Positions 35,004 through 61,275 of a stretch of 64,000 nucleotides of DNA are shown in pieces. The DNA lies in NCBI GenBank assembly GCA_003665825.1, contig QPFY01000004.1:744001-808000 (forward strand). The letters run 5' to 3'. The stretch is from Microbotryum silenes-acaulis (lineage: Eukaryota; Basidiomycota; Microbotryomycetes; Microbotryales; Microbotryaceae). The notes below the pieces were generated by a model. That model searched no databases and had not been told where the DNA came from. It saw nothing but the letters and a program-made list of their open reading frames with translations. Made by a program: the position numbers and the translations under genes. Within the stretch, counting starts at the first letter, position 1. Each line of letters starts with the position of its first letter.

Positions 35004-35075
35004 GCCCAATGCGGGGCTCGAACCCGCGACAACCTGATTAAGAGTCAGGTGCTCTACCGACTGAGCTAACCGGGC
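35004..35075 (-). tRNA. tRNA-Lys (anticodon CUU)
   Basis: A 72-nt cloverleaf on the minus strand. The acceptor stem GCCCGGT pairs with ATTGGGC (two G-U pairs). D arm GCTC...GAGC; anticodon arm CCTGA-CTCTTAA-TCAGG with CTT; T arm GCGGG-TTCGAGC-CCCGC. No intron. Identical in sequence to the copy at 61204-61275. Confidence 0.97.
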
Positions 35076-35132
35076 ATCATGTTTTTTTGATGATATTTCA
35101 GGGTCGGTAGGAACTATACATTCCACCTAGTG
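35076..35132 (-). repeat. 57-bp conserved 5' flank of tRNA-Lys (copy 1)
   Basis: In tRNA sense this stretch starts CACTAGGTGGAATG and ends CAAAAAAACATGAT, directly before the tRNA. It matches 61147-61203 at 54 of 57 positions. Similarity ends abruptly at 35132, and LINE sequence begins seven bases further out. Confidence 0.9.
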
Positions 35133-35138
35133 CGTGCA
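35133..35138. repeat. Target-site duplication CGTGCA (left copy)
   Basis: CGTGCA here and again at 35329-35334 exactly flanks the 190-bp family-C tail fragment, as expected of target-primed reverse transcription. Confidence 0.7.
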
Positions 35139-35328
35139 CACCGCCCGTTGGAGTCCGCGTTAGGTGCTCGGCGGGCTTTGATCTGCGCAGCGCTCTTTGC
35201 GCGCAGGGGTTTGACTTTCACCCAACTGCTCGCCGTCGTTGCTTTATAACCACCTTTAGCTCTTTTTGTAGCGGTCCCAGTCAACCCAAAGGATTGCAAT
35301 TTATGAGCCCCAGTCAAACAAAAAAAAA
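35139..35328 (+). mobile_element. 5'-truncated LINE family C insertion (190-bp tail with poly-A)
   Basis: Matches the last 190 bp of LINE C (52328-52517) with only a handful of differences, starting at CACCGCCCGTTGG and ending CAGTCAAAC plus poly-A. It is flanked by CGTGCA duplications. It has the size of a SINE, but the match to the 3' end of LINE C shows it is a severely truncated LINE copy. Confidence 0.85.
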
Positions 35329-35334
35329 CGTGCA
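35329..35334. repeat. Target-site duplication CGTGCA (right copy)
   Basis: Second copy of the 6-bp duplication. It also marks the earliest possible first base of LINE A. Confidence 0.7.
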
Positions 35335-35420
35335 TACTGGGGTCATCCCAATCGCACTACCCTACCTCTGCAAACGTCAATACATCGAATACATCAACTG
35401 CTACACCAGCTATCGACCCG

Positions 35421-37415
35421 ATGTCCGACCAGGCACCGCCTGATCCGGGCCGCGGCCCTCCGGAGCCGGCAGCGACGGGACAACCACGTGGTGACGCGGG
35501 GGCGGAAGCCGATGCCGCCGAGGGACCAGCGAACCCCGGCCTAGCGCTGTACCAGGAAAAGCGTGATGAAGAAAAGAAGAGGAAAGAGGATGTCGCGAGA
35601 ATCCTGAAGATGATCAGTGTCGAAGATGGCACACGCCAGGGCACCCGCATCCTTGTGCTCAAAGACGCACTCGGCTTCGGCAAGGACCGGGCCACCTCCC
35701 TGCGCTTCAGCGCACTCAATGCAACGAAACCAATTACCGACACGTCTGGTGCCGTTCTGGAAGTCACGTTCGAACACACCGGCGTGGCCACCGAACGCGA
35801 GAAGTCCGAGTTGTACTCGAAGGTGCTCCGTACCCTGTCGCCCGACACGTCGTTGTGTTTTAACCTGCCCGCAGGAGTTGTCCTCCCGCCCGAGCTCCAG
35901 AAATACGCTCCAATCATCCATGGAGTCGCACCGGAATCGATCATCCAAAGCGGTAACACCCGGTTCAAGTTCGTGGTGCGCTGCGCTAGCGCAGCGGCGC
36001 TCGACCAAGTCCACGACGCGGCGACCAAGATCGAGTGGAAACGCTCCTTTGCCCAAGTCCGCAAGCGCTTGGCGTTCGTCAAAAACGTCGTCGAACTGCG
36101 TTTCATTATCAGTCCTGAGGCCGAATACACGAACGACGACCTCTGGAACAAACTGCAAGGCGTCGTCGCCAAGCTTACCGGGGACGGCCACAAGTGCGAC
36201 TTGCTCCAACTCCAGCAGCCTCTAACGGTCGTTCAAGGCTCGTACCTCGTCGCTCGAGGAAACTACGCGGCCATCGTCCAGTTCGACGACGACGACCTGT
36301 TCAAGAACAACGGTGCTCAACTTCGGCAGGTTCTACCGACGAGGATCGACCTTCGGGGACGACTCGCAACACTCACGCCCCTTCGCCACGACTACGAGGC
36401 CGAAGCCTCGTGCCGCCGATGCGGTTTTGTAGGCCACTCCGACAACTGCGTTCAAAAGCCGGTCCAGCGTCAGCAGGCCTCCCAGAAAAACAACAACAAC
36501 CAAAGGCCCCAGGCCGAGCCCCAAAGCAACATCGAGCAAACCTCGACCCCCCAAAAACAACGCAGAGGTGATGTAGCCTCTCCCTCTCCCCCAATGTCTC
36601 CTGTCGCGTCCAAGCGTTCAAAGAAGAACGCATCTCCCACAAGGGACACTAACAACTCACCACGAGTCTACCCTACTCGTTCACAAAGCTCTACACCCAC
36701 AGCATCCGCCCCTCGCGGTTTCATCGTCGCCGCAAACCCATTCGCAAGTCTGGCCGGCGACGTAGCCGAGGAGGCGCAGGAGGAGCCCGCTCAGGCCCTC
36801 GAGGACGACGAGGACGCGATGAGCGTAGTCGAGGCACAGCTGGAACAACAGCAGGAGGTGCCGCCGCTGGAGCCTTCGGATCTGTCGGATCTGCAGGACC
36901 GCGGAGCGGAGGGGAACCAGGGGGAACACACGGAGACGAGTGACGCGGAAGAAGGGGAATCGCAGTCGGCCGAGACGGGGTCTGTGCCTGAGATTGTTTC
37001 GACGACTCCTGAGCATACCCCTGAGCTGACGCGCTCCCGATCGGCCAGTCACCATCAGCTTGATATGGACGGCCTTCCCGACGACTGGATGAATCGTGTG
37101 TCGGATCGCGAGCGCAAACAGGATGCTGGTCTATACGATGAGATCACCGAGTTGGACCGCACCCCGTCTGTGACCGGTTGGATGCCTTCGCCGTCTCCAG
37201 GTCCAGTGTTTGATCCCGAGCCCGAGCCCAAGCAGGAGGTGGACGAAGGAAGTTCCCAGGGTCTTCGCCGGTCCGAGCGTATCCAGCGTCTCACCAGCGT
37301 CGCGCGCACATCGGACTGGAACGAATCGACTGCTGCGGACCCGCTCCCCTCACCCACATTTGGACCTATGTTGTCCATCAAGGGAGCTGCTGCTGCAACG
37401 AAGGCGCGATCGTAA
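35421..37415 (+). CDS. LINE A ORF1, Gag-like RNA-binding protein
   Basis: A 664-residue protein starting MSDQAPPDPGRGPPEPA. The middle part (SLRFSALNATK, VVELRFIISPEAEY, NYAAIVQFDDDDLF, LPTRIDLRGR) aligns by eye with LINE D ORF1 ([47 protein letters not shown]). It leads into LRHDYEAEASCRRCGFVGHSDNC. This is a zinc knuckle with spacing CX2CX4HX3C, one residue shorter than the retroviral CX2CX4HX4C. The C-terminal third is disordered, Pro/Ser-rich then acidic. ORF1 proteins bind element RNA and form the RNP. The stop TAA shares its last A with the ORF2 ATG. Confidence 0.88.
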   Translation: MSDQAPPDPGRGPPEPAATGQPRGDAGAEADAAEGPANPGLALYQEKRDEEKKRKEDVARILKMISVEDGTRQGTRILVLKDALGFGKDRATSLRFSALNATKPITDTSGAVLEVTFEHTGVATEREKSELYSKVLRTLSPDTSLCFNLPAGVVLPPELQKYAPIIHGVAPESIIQSGNTRFKFVVRCASAAALDQVHDAATKIEWKRSFAQVRKRLAFVKNVVELRFIISPEAEYTNDDLWNKLQGVVAKLTGDGHKCDLLQLQQPLTVVQGSYLVARGNYAAIVQFDDDDLFKNNGAQLRQVLPTRIDLRGRLATLTPLRHDYEAEASCRRCGFVGHSDNCVQKPVQRQQASQKNNNNQRPQAEPQSNIEQTSTPQKQRRGDVASPSPPMSPVASKRSKKNASPTRDTNNSPRVYPTRSQSSTPTASAPRGFIVAANPFASLAGDVAEEAQEEPAQALEDDEDAMSVVEAQLEQQQEVPPLEPSDLSDLQDRGAEGNQGEHTETSDAEEGESQSAETGSVPEIVSTTPEHTPELTRSRSASHHQLDMDGLPDDWMNRVSDRERKQDAGLYDEITELDRTPSVTGWMPSPSPGPVFDPEPEPKQEVDEGSSQGLRRSERIQRLTSVARTSDWNESTAADPLPSPTFGPMLSIKGAAAATKARS

Positions 37416-40400
37416 TGATTGAGTTCATCATCATGACCTGGAACGTCAACAGGGGCTTCAATACCCCTGAACGACGTCGTCTGCTTCTTTCGTATCTCAC
37501 TTCGCTCACACCTCCCCCTTCTGCTATCCTTCTCCAGGAACACAATGTTCCTAAATCACGACAATCTCACATACGCCACGAGTACGCCCAGTCCCACCAG
37601 GGCGAGGCCTACTTTTCTCAACACTGCCTCACTTTGATTCCAAGCTCTTCTCCTCTTCTCGGTGGTCATCGTCGCACGCGTCAGTCTCTTGGCGGGCGCT
37701 TACTCGTGACCACCTTCGATGTGCGGGGTTCGACGGACGTCGTCGAACTCAACAATATCTACGCTCCGGTTCAACCCGCCGAGCGCCTCCTCTTCTTCAC
37801 CTCCCTTCACTTTCGGGCGACCGTCTCCTCTCACATTCGGGTCATCGCGGGCGATCTCAACGACTGCCCTATCCCCGCGGTGGATCGAGTGCGACAGGTG
37901 GACCGCCCGAACACCCACCACTGGCCCGCGCTTATGTCTCGGCTCGACGGGGCGTACACGGATGCCATTCGGCTCATGCACCCACTGTCGCCGGCGACCA
38001 CGCGCCCGCATCTCAGCAAGGACGGCCGGCTCATTTCGCGCGCGCGCATCGACTTTGTTCTGGTGCAGCGGCGACACGAGCGACGGATCGTTTCTGCTTC
38101 CACTCTGTACAATATCTCTCGATCCATGTCGGATCATCGACCGGTTACGGTCACATTTAGGCTGCGCGCAAGTGGTGCCGAGGTCGAAGCGGAGCTCTGC
38201 CTTCCCCAGGCGGCTCATTTTCTGACCCGCATCAACTCGTCGACCTTCAAACACGCCGAGTTTAAGGAGTTCGTCACTCCTCTCCTTGAGCAAGCACCGT
38301 CTGGGGATCCGGTCGCGGACCTTCAGCGCGTACTCTCGGAGTCTCGGGTCCAAGCTCTCGAGCTGTCTCGGCGTCTGTTTCGGGAGCGCAACGCCCTCGA
38401 GATGATGCTGGTATCTCGACTGCAGGACATTGAGTCTCGTCGGGTGATGAGCCCCTTTGACGTCATCGACTGGACGAACACCCACGACGCTCTCACCAAA
38501 CTTGTGAACGAGCGAGCAAGGCAGTCCCGGATCAGGGCGCACGTGCCCGAGATTGCATCCGAGGAACGTCTCAGTCGTCCGGTTCATGCCAAACTGGCTG
38601 CTCGGTCCCGGGATGTGAAGTTTCAGAGTATCCGGCTCGCTGATGGCGAGCTCACCACTGACATTGAGCGCGCGCTCGAGCACACCCATTCTCATTTCCA
38701 GCAGCACTACCTTGTCGAAGCGAAGGATCCGGAACAGGTCGTGACGATGCGGGATGAGCTCTTGGGACCCATCAGATCAGCAAGACCTTGTGACGACCCG
38801 CTTTCCGACGCTCGCTTCCTTCGGCGCTTCTCGAATTCGCACGTCGACATTCTTGCCGAGCCCATCAGCGAGGCCGAGGTGCTCGCAGCGATTCGAACCA
38901 CGCACGAAGGTCGATCTCCGGGTCCTTCAGGGGTCCCCTATGAGATGTATCGAGCCTGCCCCTTGCTTTGGGCCCCTCTCTTGACTCGAGCCTACAACGA
39001 GCTGATTACTCGAGGCTCCTTTACTCCACAACAGAGCCAGGCGAATGTGCGCCTCTTGTTCAAACACAACAAACCTGGTGCAGCGCGGTGCGACCTCAAA
39101 TCGTATCGTCCGATCACCTTGCGGGAATGCGACTACAAGATCTTCACCAAGGTCTACGTGGCTCGTCTGAACCGGATCCTCCCCGATGTTCTTCCGGCCG
39201 GACAGCATGGGTTCGTCAAGGGGCGAAGACCAGCGGACGCGGCTTTGCATCTGAGGCTCCTGATCGACGAGATTAGGGGTCGTGGGGCAGAGTTCCCGAC
39301 AGCAGCGCTCCTCTCCCTGGATCAGAGCTCGGCTTACGACATGGTCGAGCACGATTGGGTCTTTGCGGTGTTTGAGGCTCTCGGCGCGCCGGAATCTTTC
39401 CAGCGCGTCTTGCGGATGCTCTACAACGGCGAGACGTCCACAGCGCGGTACATTGTCAACGGTTTCCTTACCGAGACGGTGCGACTCCTGTGCGGTCTTG
39501 GCCAGGGCGATCCTCTCTCTTCTTCTGTCTGGGATGTGGTATTCCAACCCTTCCTTGATTCTCTCAGTCGACGCAACATTGCGCTGACTATCACTCTTCC
39601 GGAGCTGGCTCCTCGTCCGCAGACTCGATGCATCACCAATTTGGCGTTCGCGGATGACGCCGTCGTCGCTGTCGCTGGACCGGAAGCTATTGCTTCGCTC
39701 GAGGCGTTAGCTCGGGATTGGCGACTCGCGACGAACGGCCGTCTAAACACCGACAAAACCGTGGTGATGCCATTGGGCGCGACGTTGTGGGATCGCGCGG
39801 ACTTGTCCAAACTGTCGTTCGTGGCACCGGACGAGTCTCTTCCCTGGATCGGTCTCCAGTTTGCGCCTGACGGCAACAACAGGCTGGGATTCCATGATCT
39901 TGAGCGAAGGGTCGATCGAGTGATTCTCTCGGTGCGCGACCGATGGATGACGCATCATACCCGGGCTTTCTATCTCAACCGCTACGGCATCTCCAAGGTG
40001 CTGCACTCTCTCTCCGCCGACGTACCGCCATCCGACGTGATCAAGGCGATCGAGCGCAAGCTTGCCGACTTTGTGAAGGGAGGACCGCGGCGCAGCGACT
40101 ACAAGCAATCGGTCGTCTTCACGGCACGGGCGCGAGGTGGTCTCAGCGTCGTGAGCATCCAAGATGTGGTGGATTCAGTCTCGGTACGGATTTGGGACGT
40201 ACTGGCCGGCGGGTCAACTGCGATTTGGAGCGATCTGGCTCGGAGTTCCATCCGGCGAGCGCTTCCGACCTTTGACTTTGCTACGGATCTGTGGACGTGG
40301 AGGAACGCCGACGCACCCCGGGAGCTACATCCCCGCTGGCGAGCGGTGCTCTCGGTCGCTGAACGCTACCCTGCCGTCGTCGATCCTGCCAAACTTTCGG

Positions 40401-41455
40401 TCTCCAATTTTCTTTCTCTTTCTCCCCTCCAACCTGGTCTGCATGACTCGCGGGCGTTCTCGGAGCAGGATAAGCGTTTGGCGAAGCTTTTCAGTTTCGA
40501 ACGCACCATCGCTGACATCTATGCGCGAGCCCAATACCCCGCAGCTCCAACGGTGCCCTGGACCCCTGAGAAGCATCCCCAAGGCGACGGCTCGGAGCTG
40601 TCCAACCTTTGGCAATGGAAGCGCGATCAAGTCCAGGCGTGGATCCAGGTCGCAGGCGATCGCCTCATCCCGCCGCTTCCGCCTCCTGTTCCCGTCCTCG
40701 CACGTCGACCACCCGTCATTCGTGTTGTTGGAGCACCTGGAGTCCGGCCCGGCGGTCCCCTCGAGCACATCTTGCCCAGAGCGACTCCGGTCGGCATGCC
40801 TGATCAAAAACTTCCCCTCCCCTCCGGCCCCTTGTGTGCTGATCAGTGGAGAATGTTGAACTTGGACAGACCTTACACCATTGCGCGACTTCGACGCGTC
40901 ATCAACCATCGACGTTTCGACGACACAAAACGCCCTGGATCACTCGCCACACCCAAAGAAAGGCGACTCTTCTGGGTGTGGTTCCACACCGGGCCCGCCA
41001 CGGCCCGCGAGCGCGAGGTGCACTTCAAGCTGGCGTACCACTTCACGCCAACGCGGAAGCGCCAGTTTGTGCAGCGGCATGGCGACTCAGCCTGCTGCCT
41101 TGTGCAGGCATGCAGCCTGGCAGGGGTGGAGGATGACTTTACTCACTTTTGGCATGATTGCCCTGACTCTTCTCAATTTTTGCAAGCAGCTAGGTCCATT
41201 CTCTGCGACGCGCTGGGGGTCGTGTCGATCCTCGACCTCGACTACACGGCACTTCAGATCGAGCACGGCCTCCCTCGACTGCGCGCTCGCCTTCCGACGT
41301 CGAAAAAGCGCCCAATCCGCGCCTTCATTGCGCTGGCGCTCGACACTCTCAGCAACCGACGCTGGGATCTCCATCGCCACGCCAGAGCGATGTCGAGCAT
41401 GGACAAGGAGATGGCGGGACTGAAGGAGAGGTTGGAGCTCAGATTGGCACGATGA
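37415..41455 (+). CDS. LINE A ORF2, endonuclease-reverse transcriptase
   Basis: A 1,346-residue protein. The N-terminal AP-endonuclease-like domain runs from IIMTWNVNRGF through ILLQEHN and GDLNDCP to MSDHRPVTV. The reverse transcriptase has [34 protein letters not shown] (motif A), GLGQGDPLSSSVWD (motif B) and LAFADDAVV (motif C, FADD). The thumb region has HTRAFYLNRYGISKVLHSL. Near the C-terminus CCLVQACSL...HFWHDC is a Cys/His finger typical of LINE ORF2. No RNase H domain is recognised. The start codon overlaps the ORF1 stop in TAATG, implying termination-reinitiation. Catalytic residues are intact. Confidence 0.93.
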   Translation: MIEFIIMTWNVNRGFNTPERRRLLLSYLTSLTPPPSAILLQEHNVPKSRQSHIRHEYAQSHQGEAYFSQHCLTLIPSSSPLLGGHRRTRQSLGGRLLVTTFDVRGSTDVVELNNIYAPVQPAERLLFFTSLHFRATVSSHIRVIAGDLNDCPIPAVDRVRQVDRPNTHHWPALMSRLDGAYTDAIRLMHPLSPATTRPHLSKDGRLISRARIDFVLVQRRHERRIVSASTLYNISRSMSDHRPVTVTFRLRASGAEVEAELCLPQAAHFLTRINSSTFKHAEFKEFVTPLLEQAPSGDPVADLQRVLSESRVQALELSRRLFRERNALEMMLVSRLQDIESRRVMSPFDVIDWTNTHDALTKLVNERARQSRIRAHVPEIASEERLSRPVHAKLAARSRDVKFQSIRLADGELTTDIERALEHTHSHFQQHYLVEAKDPEQVVTMRDELLGPIRSARPCDDPLSDARFLRRFSNSHVDILAEPISEAEVLAAIRTTHEGRSPGPSGVPYEMYRACPLLWAPLLTRAYNELITRGSFTPQQSQANVRLLFKHNKPGAARCDLKSYRPITLRECDYKIFTKVYVARLNRILPDVLPAGQHGFVKGRRPADAALHLRLLIDEIRGRGAEFPTAALLSLDQSSAYDMVEHDWVFAVFEALGAPESFQRVLRMLYNGETSTARYIVNGFLTETVRLLCGLGQGDPLSSSVWDVVFQPFLDSLSRRNIALTITLPELAPRPQTRCITNLAFADDAVVAVAGPEAIASLEALARDWRLATNGRLNTDKTVVMPLGATLWDRADLSKLSFVAPDESLPWIGLQFAPDGNNRLGFHDLERRVDRVILSVRDRWMTHHTRAFYLNRYGISKVLHSLSADVPPSDVIKAIERKLADFVKGGPRRSDYKQSVVFTARARGGLSVVSIQDVVDSVSVRIWDVLAGGSTAIWSDLARSSIRRALPTFDFATDLWTWRNADAPRELHPRWRAVLSVAERYPAVVDPAKLSVSNFLSLSPLQPGLHDSRAFSEQDKRLAKLFSFERTIADIYARAQYPAAPTVPWTPEKHPQGDGSELSNLWQWKRDQVQAWIQVAGDRLIPPLPPPVPVLARRPPVIRVVGAPGVRPGGPLEHILPRATPVGMPDQKLPLPSGPLCADQWRMLNLDRPYTIARLRRVINHRRFDDTKRPGSLATPKERRLFWVWFHTGPATAREREVHFKLAYHFTPTRKRQFVQRHGDSACCLVQACSLAGVEDDFTHFWHDCPDSSQFLQAARSILCDALGVVSILDLDYTALQIEHGLPRLRARLPTSKKRPIRAFIALALDTLSNRRWDLHRHARAMSSMDKEMAGLKERLELRLAR

Positions 41456-42856
41456 AGTAGACGGCGCTCCTCCCTACCCAGCCAAGAACCACAAACCAAA
41501 AACCAAATAAAAATCACAAGTCCCCTTTCCCTCTTTCTCAATCTCCAAAATGTCTCCCAAACACGCCAGAATACTGAACCTGTTTTCTCTCGCTCTTTTT
41601 GCCATTCCTCCTCATAGGCTTCCGTACTCCCCAGGAGCCTCGGGTTCTTTGCGCCGGCGGGCATTGTCGCCCTTGGTTCGAGCTTCTGCCACATCACGAT
41701 GACACACAGCGAAAGCGGATCCCCTTGGCCCTCTCCTGGACTACGCCGTGAGTTTTCCACTCCTCTCAAGGGCCGGGTCAGTTTTCTCTTTTCGGTCGAG
41801 CGACTCCGTGATCTCCTGTTCAAGGCCGGCACAAACTGCCTGCGTGGCTCGCCTCTCCTTGCTTTGCTGCTCGCTCGGAGTCGCGGCCGCGCGGCGGGTG
41901 ACTCGGGTACCGAACCGCCATACACATCCACACTCGAGCGAGGTCCCACCCAATGACATCACCGTCGTGGGCCTCATGCTCCTTCATTCCCCAGTATCTG
42001 CGGTGATTGGGAACCACCTGCACGTACAACGGGACTCGAGTGTGCGTTCCGAGATTGGGAGTACGCCGCAGGGAAGCGAGGCCCCTGCGGAAGGTATACC
42101 CCGCCTCTTGTCTCCAGCCGCGCGCCGGTGTTGTCGGCCACCCGCCCGCGCTGCAGACCGAGGCGTGTCCAATGGACTGTCACATGCTCCGTGACTTTCC
42201 CCGGAAATCTATGGATTGTGTGTTTTTGTGCGAAGTAGGCCTGTTTCGCAGTTGCAGTCATTGAAATGGGGGTGATCTGGGGTCGTGCGGTCGCGAGGGG
42301 GGGCCGACTTTGGTAACCGAAAAGGGGTTTGGAATCCGCGGTGCAAATCCAGCGCAGTTGGGTACAAGGGGTAGGTGATTGCTGCGGTCGCAGGGGGTTA
42401 CATCCCCCCTTTGGACCACGTGAATCATTCGGATTGAGCGGGATGTTTGTGCCATCGGAGGCCTTGTTCGACGCGTGTCAAAGAATTAAGGGGCTTCAAG
42501 GAGTATGGCGGTCTCGGGGGGGTTCTGAAGTCAAAAGATCGAAGAAGGTTCAACTGTACAACTATAATCGGATTCGCCTGTACAACACATGTACCACCAC
42601 CAACAATTCCTCCATCGTTTCCCGATTCCTTGTGTATTATCTTCAATCTTCCTTTCATTCGTCTCTGGGAGGGAGCAACCGTGGGTGGGGGGGACTTGAA
42701 CTCGGATGTATCGGGTTGGTCTGTTCTGCTAGTTACAACGCATCGAGCGGCGGTTGTGGTCATCATCGTGCATACTGGGCAGCATCTCCTTTAGTTCCGT
42801 AGGGGGTTTTCTCGTCTTGCAAATTAGCGATGAGTTTCATACAAAAAAAAAAAAAA

Positions 42857-43500
42857 GGATTGTGTGTTTTTGTGCGAAGTAGGCCTGTTTCGCAGTTGCA
42901 GTCATTGAAATGGGGGTGATCTGGGGTCGTGCGGTCGCGAGGGGGGGGCCGACTTTGGTAACCGAAAAGGGGTTTGGAATCCGCGGTGCAGATCCAGCGC
43001 AGTTGGGTACAAGGGGTAGGTGATTGCTGCGGTCGCAGGGGGTTACATCCCCCCTTTGGACCACGTGAATCATTCGGATTGAGCGGGATGTTTGTGCCAT
43101 CGGAGGCCTTGTTCGACGCGTGTCAAAGAATTAAGGGGCTTCAAGGAGTAGGGCGGTCTCAGGGGGGGTCTGAAGTCAAAAGATCGAAGAAGGTTCAACT
43201 GTACAACTATAATCGGATTCGCCTGTACAACACATGTACCACCACCAACAATTCCTCCATCGTTTCCCGATTCCTTGTGTATTATCTTCAATCTTCCTTT
43301 CATTCGTCTCTGGGAGGGAACAACCGTGGGTGGGGGGGACTTGAACTCGGATGTCTCGGGGTTGGTCTGTTCTGCTAGTTACAACGCATCGAGCGGCGGT
43401 TGTGGTCATCATCGTGCATACTGGGCAGCATCTCCTTTAGTTCCGTAGGGGGTTTTCTCGTCTTGCAAATTAGCGATGAGTTTCATACAAAAAAAAAAAA
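42857..43500 (+). mobile_element. 5'-truncated LINE A copy (644-bp tail with poly-A)
   Basis: Near-identical (about 99%) to 42213-42856, starting GGATTGTGTGTTTTTGTG and ending GTTTCATAC plus poly-A. It begins directly after the poly-A of LINE A. With only a short A-run between the two, this is best read as a second, truncated insertion into the poly-A tail rather than slippage. Confidence 0.85.
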
Positions 43501-43527
43501 GTCATACAAAAAAAAAAAAAAAAAAAA
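43501..43527 (+). mobile_element. Minimal LINE A tail: about 6 nt plus poly-A
   Basis: GTCATAC followed by about 20 A. TCATAC matches the last six bases of family A before its poly-A. It is either an extremely truncated insertion or a template-switch scar. Confidence 0.55.
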
Positions 43528-44816
43528 GCATCCCGGTCACCGCCCTTCGCCATGACTATGAGAAGGAGGCGGCTTGCGGTAGGTGCCACTTCGTGGGTCA
43601 CGTGGGAACCTGCGGATTGGATCAGGAGAGGAAGCGAAAGGAGGCTCACAACGGCAACAGCAACAGCAACAGCAACAGCAACAAGAACACCATCACCAAC
43701 GACACCAACATTGTGGAGGCCGAGGTCCCCATTCCTGTGCCGGCTGTTAACAGGATTGCATCACAGAATCGCTTCGCCGGGCTCGAGGTTGAGGAGGGAC
43801 AGGAGGAAGCGGTAACTGGCCAGAGCGGACAGGGGCCGGAGGAATCGGGGGAGGAGGACGCTGGTGATAAGGCGGATGACGAGGACTCGGAGGACTCGGA
43901 GATGGAATCGGAGGCGACCGCGAAAACGGAGGTCATCAAAATTGAGAGCGAGGACGAGTCGGTTTTAGAGGACCGCAGAGGATCCGATGGAGAGGTGATT
44001 GATGAGGATGAGGTGATGGCGGATGGAAGGGGCGAAACAGAAGGCAAGGTGGCGACGGAGATGGAGGAAGGGGAGGTGACGACGGAGATGGAGGAAGAGG
44101 AGGTGGCGACGGAGGTGGACGATGTGGACGAGGCGGGGGGAGCGACGAAAGCGGAGAATGCGGAAGCGACGGACTTAGGGGAGACGAACAGGCTGGACAA
44201 TGACGACGACAGCGACGCAACAGCAACCGCCGCCACCGCTTCCCGCGAATCGACACCCCACGAACCAACCCCACCTTTGTCACCCGGAACTCTCGCCAAG
44301 TCGCTACGCGAGGGGGAGGAGTGGGACAGGATCAGAGCTAACTGGGTTGAGCAGGCACGACTCGAGCGGGACCAAAGCATCGAGAGGAGGCTCGACGCTG
44401 AAGCCCCTTTGGTGGGTCACAACTTTGCCACGTGGGATGAGGACGGTGAGATACGTTCCATCAACATCAGGGGGACCGCTGCGAAGTTCAAGAAGCCGGT
44501 GAGGAAGAGGTCGCAGACTGCGGCGGACCTCAGTGACCCGAGTGACGAACCGACCGACGCCAAGCGAGTGATCATCAAAGGGAAGAGCCGCGTCGTTGTC
44601 AAGGATGGAATAGAGGGGCGGAGGGTGACGAGGTCGATGTCGGCGGCGGCGGCGATGCCGGTTGGCGTGACGAAGGTGGACCGAGGGAAAGCAAAGGGGG
44701 TAGCCGAGGAGAAAAGATGGTCCGACCACGAGCCCGAGGACGATGTCCTGCCCGCCCTCCCCCTCTTTGAGGACGTCACCACCGCCAAGAGCGCCTCGAC
44801 CTCAACTACCCATTAA
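43528..44816 (+). pseudogene. LINE B ORF1, 5'-truncated
   Basis: Open from the truncation to TAA (44814-44816). It begins in the [29 protein letters not shown] block, so the CX2CX4HX3C knuckle is kept. A Ser/Asn repeat and a long Glu/Asp-rich tail with MEEGEV repeats follow. The N-terminal RNA-binding part is lost. The last A of the stop is the first base of the ORF2 ATG. Nearly identical to LINE D ORF1 over the shared region. Confidence 0.85.
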
Positions 44817-52327: not shown

Positions 52328-52517
52328 CACCGCCCGTTGGAGTCCGCGTTAGGTGCTCGGCGGGCTTTGATCTGCGCAGCGCTCTTTGCGCGCAGGGGTT
52401 TGACTTTCACCCAACTGCTCGCCGTCGTTGCTTTATAACCTCCTTTAGCTCTTTTTGTAGCGGTCCCAGCCAACCCGAAGGATAGCAATTTATGAGCCCC
52501 AGTCAAACAAAAAAAAA

Positions 52518-54465
52518 TCCGCAATCGCAATTTCAATTTTCGTTACACTCCCTCGGAGTGGACCATTTGATTCCCCCATGGCCTCAAGACGGTTTCAAAT
52601 CCCTTACTTCAAATCGGGGAAGAAGGAAAGGGCAACTATGGGGTTAAGCAACTTGAATTCCAAGTTTTGAATTGGTTGACGTGGCCAGCCAACGCAATAT
52701 ATGCGCATAGTTTGTTATTAGCCTGGCGCAACCCTCATTAGTTTCAGTACTTGGTTTGGTATGTTGGCTGACAGTTGGGCGCTGCAATGCGAGGCATGGT
52801 TCTACAAACCAAAACAAAGGTTAAACCACTTCACTCCACTTCACTTCGAAATCGCCCTACCGCAGTCTTTGATACTCGAGTTAACAAGTGATACACCGAC
52901 AAGATGTCTACAGGAGACCCTGGGTCCCCACTGCCGGCACCGCCACCACCGGTGTCCGCCACCAGCGTCCAGCCACCCCGCGACCAGATCCCGATAAGCT
53001 TGAAGAAGACGCAAGTCACGGGCCCCGCCACCGCCGCACCCAACTATGCCGCCGCTGCGAGTCAGATGGCGACTCAGTCACCTGAACAACAGCAACAACA
53101 ACAACAGCGTGCCAAGGCTCTGGGCAGCCTCCTACAAGCCATGGGTGCTGTACCCGGAAACCGCATGGATCGTTGGGTCCAGGCCATCTACTTCGCCAAA
53201 CTCTACCCCGTCGCCACCGCCACATCGCTGAAATTTTCGGCCTTGAACGCGAACCAGTCTGTCGAGAACATCTTTGATTACGCCCTTGAAGTGACTCTGT
53301 CTCACCAGAGCGCCTCGCGAGCGTCTCATGCCGACAAGACCGATCTCGTGGCCTGCGTCACGAGGCTGCTATCGCCGATCTCTCCTATCTGCTTTGAGCC
53401 TGGAGTTCCTCTGCCGGACCACCTTGCGGCCTATCAACCACAGATCCTAGGCGTACAACATTCATCAATCCTGCGTAATGGGGCGGCTCACCATCGCGTT
53501 ACGGTTGGGTTCGTCACCGGCGAGGCACGTGACTCCACGCTTACGACGCCCCCCGCTCTCACTTGGCGATCGGCGAAGGCCCGCTTCGCGAAATCTCACA
53601 GGTTCCACCATAACATGGTCGAGCTTCGAATCAACGTCGGTGTTCAAGGAGTGCCTTCCATGGACGCCATCATCAAATCGTTCCAATCACTAGTGCAGGA
53701 CTTGTCAGGCAAGGGACATTCGTGCCAACTTGTGCAGGTTCTGCGCGTTATCAGCGTGGACAACGCCTCGGCCTTCGCCCATGTTGCCGGAAACTACTCG
53801 GCTTTCCTACACTTCGACGACGACTCCCTGTTCCAACGCCCTAACACGACCTTGAAAGAGATCCTACCTTCGAGAATCGGCCTTCCCACTCGAGGCATCC
53901 CGGTCACCGCCCTTCGCCATGACTATGAGAAGGAGGCGGCTTGCGGTAGGTGCCACTTCGTGGGTCACGTGGGAACCTGCGGATTGGATCAGGAGAGGAA
54001 GCGAAAGGAGGCTCACAACGGCAACAGCAACAGCAACAGCAACAGCAACAAGAACACCATCACCAACGACACCAACATTGTGGAGGCCGAGGTCCCCATT
54101 CCTGTGCCGGTTGTTAACAGGATCGCATCACAGAATCGCTTCGCCGGGCTCGAGGTCGAGGAGGGACAGGAGGAAGAGGTAACTGGCCAGAGCGGACAGG
54201 GGCCGGAGGAATCGGGGGAGGAGGAAGCTGGTGATAAGGCGGATGACGAGGACTCGGAGGACTCGGAGATGGAATCGGAGGCGACCGCGAAAACGGAGGT
54301 CATCAAAATTGAGAGCGAGGACGAGTTGGTTTTAGAGGACCGCAGAGGATCCGATGGAGAGGTGATTGATGAGGATGAGGTGATGGCGGATGGAAGGGGC
54401 GAAACAGAAGGCAAGGTGGCGACGGAGATGGAGGAAGGGGAGGTGGCGACGGAGGTGGACGATTT
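52518..54465 (+). mobile_element. LINE D (family B), 5' half, cut by the copia element
   Basis: Starts after the poly-A of LINE C with about 386 bp of leader, then ORF1 from 52904. Same family as LINE B: the shared ORF1 stretch is almost identical. The sequence departs from LINE B after GGTGGACGAT (54463), where the copia LTR begins. ORF2 and the 3' end are not found on the other side of the copia element. The leader contains AACTTGAATTCCAAG...ATTGG, which resembles a motif in the 3' UTR of LINE B. Confidence 0.82.
52904..54465 (+). pseudogene. LINE D ORF1, interrupted by copia LTR
   Basis: Opens [16 protein letters not shown], with a Gln-rich run and the Gag-like core shared with LINE A. 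The zinc knuckle [13 protein letters not shown] and an acidic tail follow. The frame reads on for 17 codons into the LTR and stops at 54517. This copy shows the N-terminus that LINE B lacks, so the family-B ORF1 would be about 790 residues when whole. Confidence 0.85.
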
Positions 54466-54665
54466 TGGGAACCTGAAGCCGAGGCACGAGATACGTAAGT
54501 ACGAGAGCCGAAGATGATAGTAAAGATAGTTGGAGAAAGAAGAGAAGCGCTAAGGGAGCGCGCGCGAGGCAGGCACGAGCCGCGCGAGGCGACTAATATC
54601 AACAACTAGTAACTATTTATAATCAGGAAGACAAGTGGGATGAAACAGCAATATACACTCTGACA
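54466..54665 (-). repeat. Copia 3' LTR
   Basis: 200 bp; on the plus strand TGGGAACCTG...CTCTGACA. Differs from the 5' LTR at two positions (GAAGCGC/GAGGCGC and GGCGACT/GGCAACT). Could be extended by the TTT common to both inner and outer borders. Confidence 0.92.
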
Positions 54666-54672
54666 CCCCCCC
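54666..54672 (-). promoter_or_regulatory. Copia polypurine tract
   Basis: Seven G in minus sense (ACGGGGGGG) directly before the 3' LTR, the normal place for plus-strand primer. Confidence 0.7.
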
Positions 54673-54678
54673 GTGCTG

Positions 54679-57600
54679 TCATACCACTGCACCTCGTAAA
54701 CCCAAATTCGCCCGATGGAAGATGAACGGCTTGGGACCCAAGGCTTTGGTGAAGATATCGGCAAACATGTCACCGGTGGCGATGTAGCGGACCTCGATCT
54801 CCTTCTCAGCTACCCTTTCGCGGATGTAGTGTTCCGAGATGCGAACGTGACGAGACCCCTGATGGTTGGTCGGGTGCTGCGCAAGAGCCAGCGAACCTTG
54901 GTTGTCACCATAGAGCACGACTGGGCCAGAGACCGGAGCGCCAAGTTCAGCCAGGAGTTCGCTCAGGTGGATGGCATCACCGCTTGTGTACAAAAGAGAG
55001 AGGTACTCCGCGTCGGTAGTAGACTTGGCGACCCTGTGCTCGCGTTTGGAGCACCAAGTGATCGCGGCTCCAGACAAGATGAACGCGTAGCCCATGGTCG
55101 ATCGCGAGGTCGTTAGACAGGCTCCCCAGTTCGCGTCCGAGTAGCCATGGAGTGGTTGGCTGGTCTTGCGATAGGTGAGCCCCAAGTCCAGCGTGCCTTT
55201 GATGTAGCGGAGGACCTGCTTGATGGCTGTCCAATGCTCCGGGCCGGGCTGCTGGGAGAAGCGAGCGAGGTAGCTGACCACGAAGGCGAGGTCCGGACGA
55301 GTTCCGACTGCGGCGTACATCAATGAACCGATGGCCTGCAAGTAGCGCGTACGATCCTGAGGGGTGGCCGACAAGTCCTCGAAGTCAAGGACGACACCTG
55401 GCTGCATTGGAATACTCGCCGGCTTGGCATCGGTGAACTGGAACCTGGCCAGGATGTCCCGAACGTAGCGCTCTTGTGAGAGCGTGATAGATCCGTCTTG
55501 TCCACGCTTGACTTGGATGCCTAGGATATATTCGGCAGGTCCGAGACGTTTGATGCCGTATGCGAGTTCCAGCGCGTCAAGCACCCGGTCGATCTCGGCG
55601 GTAGAGGGACCAACCAAAAGCAAGTCGTCGACGTACAAGGCAATGTAGTGAGAGTGCCCGTCTTGTTCGCAGCGGTAGATACAGATGTCGGACCTGGTGG
55701 GGACGTATCCGAGGGACCGCAGAGTCGAGTCGATCTCAGCGTTCCAGATGGTGCCAGCCTGGCGAAGGCCGTAGATGGATTTGGACAGCTTGAGGATCTT
55801 GCCGGGCAGGTCAATGCCCTGAGGGACGCGCATGTACAGAGGCTTGTCAAGTTTGCCATGTAGGTACGCCTTGTTGACGTCGGCCTGATGGACGTGATAG
55901 CCGTTGGCCGCGGCGAGTGCGATGAGGGCTCGAATGGACGTGAATTTGACGACAGGGGCGTAGTTCTTCTCGAAGTCAAGACCAGGGTGTTGAGCACATC
56001 CGTGAGCGACGAGTCGGGCCTTGTGAGCGGTGATGTCGCCATGCTGGTTGCGTTTAGTCCGGAACACCCAGCCCGACCGCAGGAGGACCTCACCCGCGGG
56101 GAGCTCACAGGATTCGACGATTTCGAAGACCTCGTAATCGTTCAGAAGCGAATCTAATTCATCCTGTGCCGGAGCGCCCCAAATGTCCTCTTGTCCCGAT
56201 CGGATGACGTCGCCCCAATTGGCCGGATCGCGAACAACTGTCAAGTCGTGATCTGCGAAGCCGGCTTTGGTGGATGCGAAGGCGAGGAGCAGGCTCTTGA
56301 AGGAGGCGGTGGGTCCGTCGGGGCCGTTGACGAGCTGTTCCCGCGTGATCATGGTGGGAACGAGCTGGCGGCGTGTCCGGGGGCCAACTATGATGTTTCG
56401 AGTGTCAACTTCACCGGATCGGGACCAACCTTGGCGACGTCGCCGTACTCCCAAGTTGGCTTGACTTTGGCGAGTGGAGCTGGATCCGGCAGTGGCTGCG
56501 GCAAGTTCACGGCTGGCTCCGTCGTTGCGCTCGTGGTCGACGAGGTGTCGTCTTTGTTGGCCGAGTTGGTCGAAACCGGCGACGCGGGTGTCTCGTCAGG
56601 CATTGGGGAAGGTGGCCGCGGGGGAGGGTCGACAAGCGTTGGAGCCAACGACGGTGCTGGAGCTTCGACAGGTGGCGGCTGGGGGCAGTAATCCGGGATG
56701 GACGGCTGCGCCACGTGGGTTAGTGTGGTCGTGAAGGGGAACTCGGTTTCAACGAACGTCACATTTCGGCTCAGACTCACACGCATCGAGGAGGGGTCAA
56801 GAAGACGCCAGGCTTTCACGTGTCAATCGTAACCCACGAAGACCAGAGGGATCCCTTTTGGGTCAAGTTTGTCCCGTTGGTGAGCCGGCACGGTGGCCCA
56901 GGCGCGACAACCGAATGCCCGAAGACCCTCCACGCCTGGTGTGGCGCCCGACCAACGACTGTTTGGGATGCCTCCACCGAGAGCCGCGTGAGGCGATAGG
57001 TTCCTGACGTGGATGTAACACATGGCAGCCTCGTCCCAGCATGATCGTGGGAGTCCCGGGTGAGACAGAAGAGCCAGGGTGCCCTCCATGATTGATCGAC
57101 CGGTTGACTCGCTTGGCTCGACCGTTTTGCTCGGGCGTGTACGGTGTGGTCAATTTGCGACGAATTCTGCGAGCCACGCAATAGCCGTTGAAGGCGGTAG
57201 AGACATACTCGCCCCCGTTGTCCGAGCGAAGCATTTTGACCTTGCGACCCGTGGCGTTTTCGATCTCCAGAAGCCAATCCTTGAATGTCGGAAGGACCTC
57301 GCTTTTGTGCCCGATGGGGTAAACCCAAGTCTTCCTCGAGAAGTCGTCGATGAACGTGACGAGGTACCGCTTATGGTCGAAGGACTCCTCGGGGAAAGAT
57401 AAGACATCCGAGTGCACCAATGCAAGCGGTTCCGCGGCATGCGACGACGAAGAGGGGAAAGGCAAACGATGCGCTTTGGAGGCAAGGCACGCGTTGCAGG
57501 TGAAGTCTTCACACTCGAAGTCACTATAGGGCCAATCCAAACCCTCCACCTGGCCAGAGGCCGCCAGTTTTTTTAAGTGTCTGGACAGAGGCGTGGCCGT

Positions 57601-58684
57601 AGCGCCGGTGAAGGGTAAGTAGAGGTAGCCTATTGGACTTGGTGGCGACGAGCGTGTGTAGCGCACCTTTGCTGGCAGCTTGGACCGAAGTGTTGAGTTT
57701 GTAAACGCTGGACGCGATGGCTGATGCTGTGGCGATGCACCCTTGCGGCGTGCGGAGCTCGACTTCTCCGTGTTCGAAGGTGATGCGAACGCCTTTGCGG
57801 TCGAAGGCCCGGACCGAGATGAGGTTGGCAGGGCTCTCGGGGGCGTAGATCACGTTGTTGAGGGTGAACTTGGTACCATTATCGGAGACGAGCTTGACCG
57901 AGCCGATTCCCGAGGCCTTCACCGTTCCCCCTAGACCTTGCAGGACTTGCGGGGTAGGCAAAAGGGGGCCGTCAAAGAAGGACGCATCGTTGACGACGTG
58001 GCACGCCGACGCCGAGTCTAGCAGAAGGATTTCCGCCGGTGGCCCGATGTTGATAAACGTAGCAGAAGAAAAGATGGACAGGTGTTGATCCTTGGATGCT
58101 TCCTTGGTGGCCACGAACGTGGACGCAGGCGATGATGAGCCTTGGAGTTCCTTCATGGCGTTCTTGAGCTCGAGGTACTTGGCTCGCTTGCGCGATTCCG
58201 GACACTTGTCGAGCCAGTGTTTGCCTTGACCACAAGCTGGGCAGTTGCTCGGGGCAGGACCAGAACGATCCCATTTTCCCTTCTTGCCTGGTGCCGAGCG
58301 TTTGGTCGGTACGACCGCCTTCGCAACGAGGACCGTCGCTCGATTCGTCCGAGCGTTGAATCCAGCCCAAGAGGGCGGGCATGGCGGCATCGTGAGGACC
58401 CAGTCAACGTAATTGTCCTCCGTAAGCTTCGAGTCGTGTGGGAAGACCGGGGGGTTGACTGGGGGGAGTAGCTGACGCATGGAGAGTGCGTCGTCGTCCT
58501 GTGCGGGTGCGGGGCGCTGGTTCCTAATCAGCTCGTCGAATTGCTCTTTGGTGAGCGTGACGGAGGTAGCGGAGGCGACGTCGATGGTGTGGATCGACGT
58601 TGATGACGGTGGTAGAGGAGGCGTAGATGCCATGTCACCGTGATCGTCGGGGTCGCCCGCCGCTGGTAGGTTCGGTGGGCTCAT
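54679..58684 (-). pseudogene. Copia gag-pol polyprotein, damaged
   Basis: Starts [17 protein letters not shown] at 58684. A CCHC knuckle [14 protein letters not shown] lies near 58201-58242. The protease-like [12 protein letters not shown] has DSA in place of the usual DSG. The integrase HHCC begins HRRYGHAS...[11 protein letters not shown] residues are in VHSDVLSF and RSDNGGEY, but the third catalytic position reads [10 protein letters not shown], with Lys where Glu is expected. RT has [30 protein letters not shown] and YVDDLLLVG. RNase H has [21 protein letters not shown] and [10 protein letters not shown]. Frame breaks occur at an A7 run (about 57567-57573), near 57090 and near 56420, and there is an in-frame TGA at 56823-56825. 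Not able to make an intact polyprotein as sequenced. Confidence 0.88.
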
Positions 58685-58688
58685 AACC
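58677..58688 (-). promoter_or_regulatory. Copia primer-binding site, complementary to initiator tRNA-Met anticodon arm
   Basis: In minus sense GGTTATGAGCCC lies three bases inside the 5' LTR. It is complementary to GGGCUCAUAACC, the anticodon-loop sequence of fungal initiator tRNA-Met. This is half-tRNA priming, known for Drosophila copia and yeast Ty5. The gag ATG lies inside the site. Confidence 0.75.
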
Positions 58689-58691
58689 TTT

Positions 58692-58891
58692 TGGGAACCT
58701 GAAGCCGAGGCACGAGATACGTAAGTACGAGAGCCGAAGATGATAGTAAAGATAGTTGGAGAAAGAAGAGAGGCGCTAAGGGAGCGCGCGCGAGGCAGGC
58801 ACGAGCCGCGCGAGGCAACTAATATCAACAACTAGTAACTATTTATAATCAGGAAGACAAGTGGGATGAAACAGCAATATACACTCTGACA
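58692..58891 (-). repeat. Copia 5' LTR
   Basis: 200 bp, minus sense TGTCAGAGTG...GGTTCCCA. 198 of 200 positions match the 3' LTR. An open frame continues from the LTR into gag. Confidence 0.92.
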
Positions 58892-61032
58892 AAGTCGACG
58901 TCCGAAAAAGAAGGGAGGAAAATGGGAAGGAAGGACTTAACTCGGTCATCATACCTCCCAATCTCGAGCCCCAGGCACAAAGCCCGCTCGAGAGAGAAAA
59001 TCTCGCTCGAACGCTCTGAGCGTACTGAGGAGCGAGGGAGGGGCCACGACCTTGTCCAGCTCGAACCGCTGATGAACGCGCCAGCGGAGCAGGTGCAGCC
59101 GCTGGAAGCCGATCACGCAGGCCAGCCGAACCCACATCCATTTCGAGGTCGTTCTCCCACGATCCCGCAAAAGGGGGAGCCCCATAGTCAGCTGCTCCGG
59201 AGTGAACGTCGACGGATCGACGTCGGTATCCTCGATGCCGAGCTTGTCGAACAGAATGCGAAGCACCCCGCCCCAGAAGCTGGTCGAGTACGCGCACTCG
59301 AAAAAGTAGTGCGACACCGTCTCGATGACCGCTGCATCGTTGCCGCAGAATAGACACGTCGGCGAAGAGGCATGACCCTGAGTATGCTGCCTCTTGCGCG
59401 TCGGCGTCACGTCGTACATGAGCCGCCAGTGGGTGTCCTGCTCCACAGCAGACGCGAACCGGTCATGAAGCCATCTCCAGAAGCGCTTCCTATCGCTCTG
59501 AGAAGTCCCCATCACGGAAACGCTTGACACGATCCTCCCTCCCTGGGAACCGCACCACGTTCACAAGCCGACGAAGCTTGCGAATAGTGAACGGTCGGGT
59601 GAGCCCAAAGAAGTTGAAGCACCGGGGACGGGGAGCCTCCTTGAGAGGTATCCGAGCAGGTCGCAACGCGGTCTTGGGCAGCAACGCTTTCGCCTTGAGC
59701 AACTGACCCACGCGCGACCACACGTGCTCGTGCTGTAGGGCGGGTTCCTTAGAGTGCTGCCAGAACCCGCGTCGATGACCAACCAGAGCCCATCCCTTCC
59801 CTTCGTCCCTCCAGTACAGGTCCGCGATCTGCGCAAACTTCGCCACTGCGTCCGCATCGTCATATGCGTGCTTGGCACCTTCAGCATAGAGTGAAGGGAG
59901 GCGAGGCGGAAGCGAAAGCAATTCGGGAAGCGTAAGGAGTTCGGACTTGATGGTTGGAACTGTGACCCTGGCCGCTGCAACGACTGCCCCCCAACGCGTC
60001 GAGTCACGATACAGCTTCTCGACCCGAGCCGTGCTGCTGAAGAACCCCCACGGACTGAAATCGCGGGTCGCAGCGACAAGGGACCTCCAGCTCTCGCGAG
60101 CTAGGGGCGCCCAGATCGCCTCGTCCGAGCCCGCCACAGCATCCCAAAATCGAAGCGCCACCGAATGAACGATGTCGCCGATCGAAATCAAGCCCAAGCC
60201 CCCGTCCTCCCGAGCCTGGAACACGAAATCGCGAGCGACGGTATTTCGCCCTGCTCCTCCCCAGACAAAATCCGTAAGTGCCGTCTCTGCCGCCTTAATG
60301 AACCATTGAGGCGGTATGTCAAAGGACAGCGCGTGGAGGACCGTCGAGATGATGTGAGCGTTGGCATAGAAGACCTTCCCACTCGGCGAAAGTGTCCGGT
60401 CTCCAGCGGTGCGGGTCTTGGCCTTGATCCTGTCAAGAACATGGGTCCAAAACAGTTTCGAGCCACCGTGGCGAAAGAAGGCATAGCCGCACCACTTGAA
60501 GCTCTCCCCCTCCTGCACCGTTGGCAGCGCCTGCGCAGTCTCGTCCCGAAGCCAGTTCGGTCCGAGTGGTAGCACCAGCGTCTTGTCCGTGTTGGTCTTC
60601 CCGTTGGTTGCCTCGTACCATGTCTGCGACAGCGTTTTCAGCTTCGACAATGCCGCCGGTGACTCCACCACCACCACAGCATCATCGGCAAACGCCAGAT
60701 GCGTAAGCTGCGCACGCGGCCCCCCTGGCTACACCTTCTGCAGGTCGAGCGCGATCCCGCGCCGCACGAGGGCGTTGAGGAAAGGTTGGAACGTGATGTT
60801 CCAAACCGGGCACGAGAGGGGATCCCCCTGACCGAGACCACACAGCAACCGCACCAAGTCCGTGGGGAACCCACTGACAAGGTAGCGCACCCCCAGAGTC
60901 TCGGGATTGTAGAGAGCACGCAGCAGCGAGATGAAACACTCACCGAACCCAAAGGCCTCAAAGACCTCGAAGATCCAGGCGTGATCGACCCGATCGTACG
61001 CGCTCTGCTGATCCAAAGACAAGAGGGCGCCG
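58892..61032 (-). mobile_element. LINE C, inverted second copy
   Basis: Antiparallel copy of 49485-51625, ending at the copia LTR within the LINE C 3' UTR. It starts at the same truncation point (CGGCGCCC after poly-A) as the plus-strand copy, so both derive from one event followed by duplication. Confidence 0.9.
58949..61032 (-). pseudogene. LINE C ORF2 remnant, inverted copy
   Basis: Same content as 49486-51568, including the identical in-frame TAG (60729-60731). It has an additional one-base G insertion near 59509-59512 that shifts the frame after VKRFRDG. Substitutions against the plus copy include Asn to Ser in YLVNGFP and Gly to Asp in LLRGRG. Inactive. Confidence 0.88.
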
Positions 61033-61134
61033 TTTTTTTTTTTGTAGAAACTGTTCATCATATTGCCCCCAATTCCTGTTCCCCCTGATTGGCCTACGGA
61101 AAAACTAGATGGAAGTCGACGATGATAACACAAA
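61033..61134 (-). mobile_element. LINE B tail fragment (about 100 bp with poly-A)
   Basis: Matches 49384-49484, from TTTGTGTTATCATCG to GTTTCTAC plus poly-A. Between its 5' end and the conserved tRNA flank are only 12 bases (GAGAGAGATTTT, 61135-61146). Confidence 0.85.
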
Positions 61135-61146
61135 GAGAGAGATTTT

Positions 61147-61203
61147 CACTAGGTGGAATGTATAGTTCCTACCGACCCTAAAATATCATCAAAAAAACAT
61201 AAC
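61147..61203 (+). repeat. 57-bp conserved 5' flank of tRNA-Lys (copy 2)
   Basis: Matches 35076-35132 (inverted) at 54 of 57 positions, from CACTAGGTGG to the first base of the tRNA. Confidence 0.9.
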
Positions 61204-61275
61204 GCCCGGTTAGCTCAGTCGGTAGAGCACCTGACTCTTAATCAGGTTGTCGCGGGTTCGAGCCCCGCATTGGGC
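61204..61275 (+). tRNA. tRNA-Lys (anticodon CUU)
   Basis: 72 nt, identical to the copy at 35004-35075. All four arms pair and the anticodon is CTT. It is followed at once by TTTT and then a T10 run (61290-61299), good Pol III terminators. Confidence 0.97.

Follow-up and report, generated by a model that had tools for sequence, protein, structure and literature searches.

The locus examined here raises the question of whether a fungus can harbor long interspersed nuclear elements (LINEs) that find tRNA genes and insert at a set distance in front of them. The window, by which we mean the whole 64,000-nucleotide stretch of the Microbotryum silenes-acaulis genome that was analysed (C4:744001-808000), contains an array of LINEs bracketed by two tRNA-Lys(CUU) genes, and a sequence-only reading had proposed that these LINEs are targeted to tRNA genes. 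Both tRNA genes were present as that reading described them, identical in sequence and with their 5' sides toward the array. In the genome surveyed (29.85 Mb in 88 contigs, the one genome from which all counts are taken), at least three LINE families insert repeatedly about 60-70 bp before tRNA genes or tRNA-like repeats and point away from them. Judged from the insertion pattern, targeting to units of RNA polymerase III (Pol III) is close to certain. The family letters A, B and C and the repeat names SINE1 and SINE2 are labels coined in the present work, and individual loci are given as L numbers.

The occupancy of tRNA genes was determined on a set of genes chosen independently of LINEs. A tRNA model search returned at least 46 places (a lower bound, with 63 scored of 669 first-look candidates), and eight of these, recognized by their common flanks as copies of the dispersed tRNA-like repeat SINE1, were removed, leaving 38 tRNA genes. 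LINE presence was scored as a match of at least 60 bp to the LINE library in the upstream flank, which was fetched to 1.5 kb at 25 loci and to 0.8 kb at 13. LINE sequence was detected upstream of 32 of the 38 genes, and a measured LINE end lay within 100 bp upstream of 29 of them. The library includes the window itself (L009 and L010) and the flank of L022, so three of the 32 LINE-positive genes match themselves; the LINE identity of the L022 flank is also backed by a reverse transcriptase (RT) match and by family C matches. Two pairs of tRNA loci (L038/L039 and L044/L045) are near-duplicates and hence not independent. When symmetric 1.5-kb flanks were compared at 25 loci, LINE sequence was upstream of 21 and downstream of one (L021, 189 bp). 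The targeted genes span many isotypes, the ARAGORN isotype names being rough for some intron-bearing genes. Other tRNA-Lys genes free of LINEs had been named beforehand as a point against targeting; a gene of the other type, UUU (L013), has a LINE, 66 bp away.

The gap between LINE and tRNA gene was narrowly distributed. Gaps were measured once the tandem repeats at the 5' terminus of the element itself had been trimmed off, and the 39 measured tRNA junctions (29 from the 38 unselected genes and 10 from loci found beside LINEs) had a median gap of 65 bp. Twenty-nine gaps fell at 50-75 bp and eight at 76-99 bp; the two remaining, of 42 and 48 bp, were probably over-trimmed. Loci with unclear ends (L019, L021, L040, and L067) and a duplicate (L062) were excluded from the junction set, and L044, L045, and L114 were added by hand. 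A distance check on the 5' flanks of the genome's tRNA genes, which the sequence-only reading had put forward, was thus run here, and the resulting junction peak at 60-70 bp, together with the LINEs upstream of 32 of 38 genes, bears out its proposal of tRNA-targeted LINEs. The present analysis adds that the orientation is fixed: LINE and tRNA gene run antisense to each other, and it is the 5' end of the LINE, complete or truncated, that faces the gene. Antisense orientation was found at 49 of the 50 tRNA and repeat loci having a library match within 300 bp upstream, the single sense match being an unclassified repeat 294 bp from a SINE1 (L105). Orientation was set by default at L022 and L067, where RT matches agree with it, and at L019 and L021 the only match there is to that same unclassified repeat. 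In all three families the 5' side can terminate in short, variable tandem repeats, with units of 7 bp in A and of 5 bp in B and with (CA)n in C; such 5'-terminal repeats were seen at L013, L044, and L067 and at window positions 35343 and 52832.

Clustering at tRNA genes is far beyond chance genome-wide, and the excess is peculiar to LINEs compared with the other mobile elements tested (RVT_1 classes and copia). The RT counts apply to the matches listed, namely 150 scored of 235 candidates for RVT_1 and 150 scored of 677 for RVT_2 (copia). Among these, 28 RVT_1 matches lay within 12 kb upstream of the 38 tRNA genes, and all 28 were LINE and antisense. This corresponds to 28 of 96 LINE RTs vs. 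none of 54 other RVT_1 matches (Fisher p 1e-6), with 0/15 and 0/26 for the two largest non-LINE RVT_1 classes. Two of the 150 listed copia RTs lay within 12 kb upstream on either strand (p 5e-11). Downstream, the same distance held two LINE RT matches and one other RVT_1 match among those listed, and both LINE RTs come from L044/L045, the near-duplicate pair whose arrays face each other.

The association was also followed from the LINEs back to the tRNA genes. Sixty-eight LINE RT matches lay away from the listed tRNA genes; 20 that lead an array and have long frames were chosen, and 1.5-1.6 kb was taken at the predicted 5' end of each. ARAGORN, run on both strands, found 10 true tRNA genes and one SINE1 at the 20 predicted sites, 11 of 11 on the predicted strand, although two of these 11 (L057 and L062) seem to be copies of one locus. 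SINE2 was present at the predicted sites of L055 and L069, L070 probably leads to a SINE1 (L096), L072 leads to a tRNA-Gln gene (L116) 69 bp from the LINE, L073 leads to a tandemly repeated 5' half of tRNA-Leu, and L059 seems to be part of the L040 array. At L050, L073, and L111, 146-bp tandem repeats consist of the 5' half of the tRNA-Leu gene and its upstream flank.

Searches with the intact 5' ends gave 34 matches for family A, 25 for B, and 26 for C (all first-look candidates scored, a few of the matches being cut short). Of these 85 LINE 5' ends, 34 had a listed Pol III unit no more than 350 bp away, with side and strand as predicted, seven had one at 0.35-12 kb, 25 were in arrays leading to a Pol III unit, and three were in arrays with no known unit; up to 350 bp from the listed units, no 5' end had the side or the strand wrong. 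These fractions are not independent because part of the unit list was found beside LINEs, while side and strand remain independent. The 34 family A matches were 99-100% identical, 32 starting from query base 1 and two from base 7, which marks the family A copies as young. At G000:C7:1150990-1194927, the spacing of successive family A 5' ends alternates between about 9.12 kb and 8.14 kb, which looks like the tandem repetition of a LINE unit of 17.3 kb.

Such a pattern could in principle arise if LINEs inserted at random and selection purged them everywhere except near tRNA genes, where they would be harmless. The fungal genome is compact, and the flanks of tRNA genes are probably safe places for insertion. 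We nonetheless consider this explanation extremely unlikely, since the distance peak is a few tens of bp wide, the orientation is fixed with no wrong-side case within 350 bp, the family A copies are young by the identity of their 5' ends, and copia and other RVT_1 elements persist elsewhere in the genome.

The point of entry was estimated from target-site duplications. Duplications of at least 5 bp flanked six of 16 short copies vs. 1.5 expected with shuffled partners (p 0.001). Nick sites could be placed from duplications in seven cases, six of them at -57 to -65, and comparison of the seven sites by eye revealed no common word.

The range of targets proved wider than the tRNA genes named by the sequence-only reading, as two families of tRNA-like repeats are hit as well. 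The tRNA-like SINE1 is 158 bp long, contains an A and a B box, and gave at least 41 matches (40 scored of 69 candidates). Thirty copies were fetched (L078-L107) and one was dropped for absence of the start motif; among the 29 retained, a LINE lay within 100 bp upstream in five, two more had library matches at 294 and 461 bp, and none had a match downstream. SINE1 junctions were at 55-94 bp at six loci, including L071 (L092 and L099 are possibly one locus). SINE2, noticed solely through LINEs stopping in front of it, is likewise tRNA-like, has both boxes and a common downstream part, and is present at L055, L069, L108, L109, L110, and L115, of which L108-L110 are near-identical. The junctions at these six loci, measured to seven bases before the A box, were at 64-71 bp. 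Eight of nine SINE1 and SINE2 repeats examined have the A box at +7 and the B box at +50 or +51, a tRNA-like spacing; the exception, L055, has a B box and an imperfect A box. A B-box pattern search, with about 100 of 180 places listed, was used as a guide and no count was drawn from it.

The flanks of the tRNA genes, SINE1, and SINE2 look unrelated, and the features common to all three are the two boxes and the distance from these to the LINE junction. Because unrelated flanks, nick sites with no common word, and box-bearing repeats hit at similar distance indicate guidance by the Pol III complex, the sequences suggest that the target is most likely the Pol III initiation complex, with TFIIIC on the boxes and TFIIIB upstream, rather than a DNA word. 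Recognition of a DNA sequence upstream of tRNA genes by the endonuclease, with the Pol III machinery not involved, would draw on short words common to some tRNA flanks (GTCACGTGA at about -60 and CCGCCCCCC at -65 to -100, read by eye from the flanks), but the seven duplication sites and the three kinds of flank make it improbable. As a separate observation, a palindromic GTCACGTGA-like word lies about 60 bp upstream of the tRNA genes L019, L021, L040, L047, and L052, near the insertion point.

Targeting to Pol III units very probably proceeds by guidance of a LINE ribonucleoprotein to the unit, a nick about 60 bp upstream, and repeated insertion that builds arrays. The ribonucleoprotein would be recruited by an element protein, by analogy the protein of the first open reading frame (ORF1p), that contacts TFIIIB or TFIIIC; we infer the contact and the exact identity of its partners from this analogy. 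The endonuclease would then introduce a nick in the tRNA-sense strand, in most cases 57-65 bp upstream of the mature tRNA, and first-strand complementary DNA would be primed at the nick from the LINE poly(A) tail. Target-primed reverse transcription is suggested by the poly(A) tails and 5' truncation of the LINE copies, and priming from the tail would place the LINE 3' end distally, while the 5' end, whether complete or truncated, would come to lie at about 60-70 bp from the tRNA gene. A short duplication would form, of about 4-7 bp where seen. Since the tRNA gene stays usable, the next insertion could occur at the same site, and repeated insertion at the same place would displace older copies outward and give one-directional arrays. 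The Pol III complex as guide and the strand and order of the nicks are the steps that we infer.

Several observations weigh against this interpretation. Six of the 38 tRNA genes (L016, L020, L030, L031, L049, and L050) had no LINE in the fetched flank; at L050 a LINE lies about 1.1 kb upstream, past repeated pieces of the tRNA-Leu gene. The nearest neighbor of L019 and of L021 is an unclassified repeat and not a LINE, which at both loci lies behind that repeat, about 0.53-0.55 kb upstream. SINE1 copies are seldom hit (the five of 29 given above), and no LINE-library match was found within 1.5 kb of the single 5S gene or of two sub-threshold U6 matches. Three of the 20 sites predicted from LINEs are unexplained (L056, L064, and L074), 16 of the 85 LINE 5' ends have no assignment (14 of them being without fetched flanks), and one family A copy (L113; G000:C2:125861) stands head-to-head with a LINE fragment, and the space separating the two contains no Pol III unit. 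One nick site was placed at -97, away from the other six, and 10 of the 16 short copies had no duplication of at least 5 bp. The copies without duplication would also suit a mechanism in which LINEs, needing no specific contact with a protein, enter breaks or stalled forks where tRNA genes are highly transcribed; in yeast, tRNA genes do stall replication forks. Entry of this kind is very improbable, however, given that distance and orientation are fixed relative to the gene and that LINE sequence occurred within 1.5 kb downstream at one of 25 loci.

The window itself illustrates both the pattern and its complications. On the left, the tRNA-Lys(CUU) gene (35003..35075, minus strand) is followed by a 63-bp flank (35076..35138) terminating in the target-site duplication CGTGCA (35133-35138), by a 5'-truncated family C copy of 190 bp (35139..35328, plus strand) that is the youngest insert at this gene, and by the second copy of the 6-bp duplication (35329-35334) with 8 bp of older site (together 35329..35342). 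The 8 bp of older site behind the second CGTGCA show that family C inserted later than family A, between A and the tRNA gene. Next on the plus strand are a full-length family A LINE (35343..42856), a 5'-truncated family A copy (42857..43500), a family B LINE with about 1.06 kb missing at its 5' end (43501..49485), and a 5'-truncated family C LINE (49486..52517). The family B truncation was deduced from the identity of 43528-44095 with 53895-54462, part of a copy whose 5' end is at 52832. A 0.3-kb (300-bp) repeat of unknown kind (52518-52831), also found upstream of the tRNA genes L019 and L021, separates the family C LINE from this 5' part of a family B LINE, whose 5' end is intact (52832..54462, plus strand).

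A copia element, which is a long terminal repeat (LTR) retrotransposon, lies within the array (54463..58891, minus strand), with 203-bp LTR-like ends that are 99% identical and an RVT_2 match; LINE pieces of opposite direction stand on either side of it. Beyond it are a family C piece (58891..61032, minus strand), a family B tail of 102 bp toward the right tRNA gene (61033..61134, minus strand), a 69-bp flank (61135..61203), and the right tRNA-Lys(CUU) gene (61204..61276, plus strand). All LINE pieces left of the copia element are on the plus strand, and the family C piece and family B tail right of it are on the minus strand, so that each half of the array is antisense to its own tRNA gene. 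The distances of 63 and 70 bp given by the sequence-only reading held for the left gene (63 bp, family C tail, 35139) and became 69 bp for the right (family B tail, 61134).

The two ends of the window are not two clean independent hits, because the right end is an inverted copy and lacks a duplication. The segment 61134-58891 is 99.8% identical over 2.24 kb, in inverted orientation, to 49384-51626 in the array interior, with the junction of B tail and family C included, so that the right-hand family C piece is a copy of the interior one, and no target-site duplication was seen at the right-end family B tail. The right-hand end may stem from recombination and, judged on its sequence and taken alone, is weak evidence for targeting. 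These features favor the view that both ends derive from a single recent event that duplicated a tRNA-Lys locus with its LINE in inverted orientation, which would leave their symmetry uninformative. The tRNA loci, however, match at just 182 of 198 bp (92%), with no further similarity found beyond, and the LINE copy at the left end is flanked by a 6-bp duplication of its own; such an origin is therefore rather unlikely for the two ends together. It could be true at most for the right end, and the genome-wide result is unaffected. Earlier claims about these loci fared accordingly. The match at 54 of 57 bp upstream of the two genes was found again, and the greater divergence of the downstream flanks needs the qualification that homology does extend about 65 bp downstream of the genes. 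The view of separate paralogous loci, each hit at the same place, agrees with their 92% likeness and the left-hand duplication and fails in part at the right end, which is partly an inverted duplication.

By their coding sequences, families A and B are assigned to the LINEs with an APE-type endonuclease, and family C appears to be of the same build as far as can be seen in its truncated piece. Family A ORF1 (35421..37415, plus strand) encodes 664 amino acids with a zinc knuckle, read from the sequence as CX2CX4HX4C, and has no Pfam match. Its three relatives found are all from Microbotryum, and a fold predicted together with these relatives had a mean pLDDT of 38.8, too poor for use. Family A ORF2 (37415..41455, plus strand) encodes 1346 amino acids with APE and RT. 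Family B ORF2 (44816-48835, plus strand) likewise contains APE and RT. The zinc finger zf-RVT, a trait of the TRE5 elements of social amoebae, was not detected by Pfam in A, fell below the Pfam cut-off in B, and was above it in the truncated family C piece (reading frame 49841-51568). No RNase H was matched by Pfam in the family A and B ORF2s. A protein of M. silenes-dioicae shares 95% identity with the family B ORF2, and an ORF2 relative in a Sporobolomyces has 38% identity over 67%. Compared by sequence with solved structures, family B ORF2 matched human LINE-1 ORF2p best (E 1e-23), with R2 at 4e-19. The M. silenes-dioicae match and those of a host mitochondrial carrier, which matched M. saponariae at 98% and M. 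intermedium at 88% identity, assign the genome to Microbotryum, the genus of the anther-smut fungi.

The closest parallel is with TRE5 (TRE5-A and TRE5-like elements of dictyostelids), and the elements described here would work like TRE5, the likeness being one of insertion geometry, kinship aside. According to the excerpts used of a 2018 review (PMC5911963), TRE5 integrates in opposite orientation at 40-54 bp before tRNA genes, TRE5-A ORF1p binds TFIIIB proteins, and L1-type elements near tRNA genes are recorded for social amoebae only. TRE5 elements likewise combine APE and RT, lie at a fixed distance upstream in opposite orientation, and occupy many tRNA genes; 61% of D. discoideum tRNA genes have a TRE in the portion consulted of another report (PMC5006619). 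The elements in M. silenes-acaulis differ in their fungal host, in a distance of mostly 54-72 bp (median 65) vs. 40-54 bp, a shift of about 15 bp, in also hitting tRNA-like repeats, and in forming long one-directional arrays. In the same excerpts (PMC5911963), Polysphondylium NLTR-B and D. purpureum NLTR-A are LINEs upstream of tRNA genes, at 39-64 bp and 2-6 bp, but have RNase H. Yeast Ty3, Ty1, and other LTR elements also use Pol III genes as landing sites, fungi included (PMC5911963, excerpts), but they are LTR elements with integrase, whereas the elements here are LINEs with poly(A) tails and 5' truncation. Zorro3 of Candida albicans, a fungal L1-group element, shares the two ORFs and the poly(A) tail, but targets poly(A) sites and not tRNA genes in the passages available (PMC7175516). 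R2-like site-specific LINEs have a restriction-like endonuclease and a fixed target sequence, in contrast to the APE-type families A and B and their nick sites with no common word.

No report of tRNA-targeted LINEs in fungi was found among the titles and abstracts listed from the open-licence literature, some of the listings giving a part of the papers found. A word search for 'tRNA' in the main text of a paper on transposable elements in Microbotryum (PMC10502011) found no occurrence, and the excerpted M. lychnidis-dioicae genome report gives 134 tRNAs, with LINEs as 7% of transposable element sequence (PMC4469406). On balance we favor, with moderate confidence, a fungal LINE group of at least three diverged families that homes on the Pol III initiation complex at a distance set from the A box, with any unit bearing A and B boxes as a landing pad and most tRNA genes seeding arrays; this would be an independent TRE5-like invention that predates the family split.

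Homing to tRNA genes by LINEs has, in the sources excerpted, so far been described for social amoebae. The fungal case offers a second lineage, one close to yeasts with well-known Pol III biology, in which to test how LINEs find Pol III genes, and shows that tRNA genes are able to seed LINE arrays.

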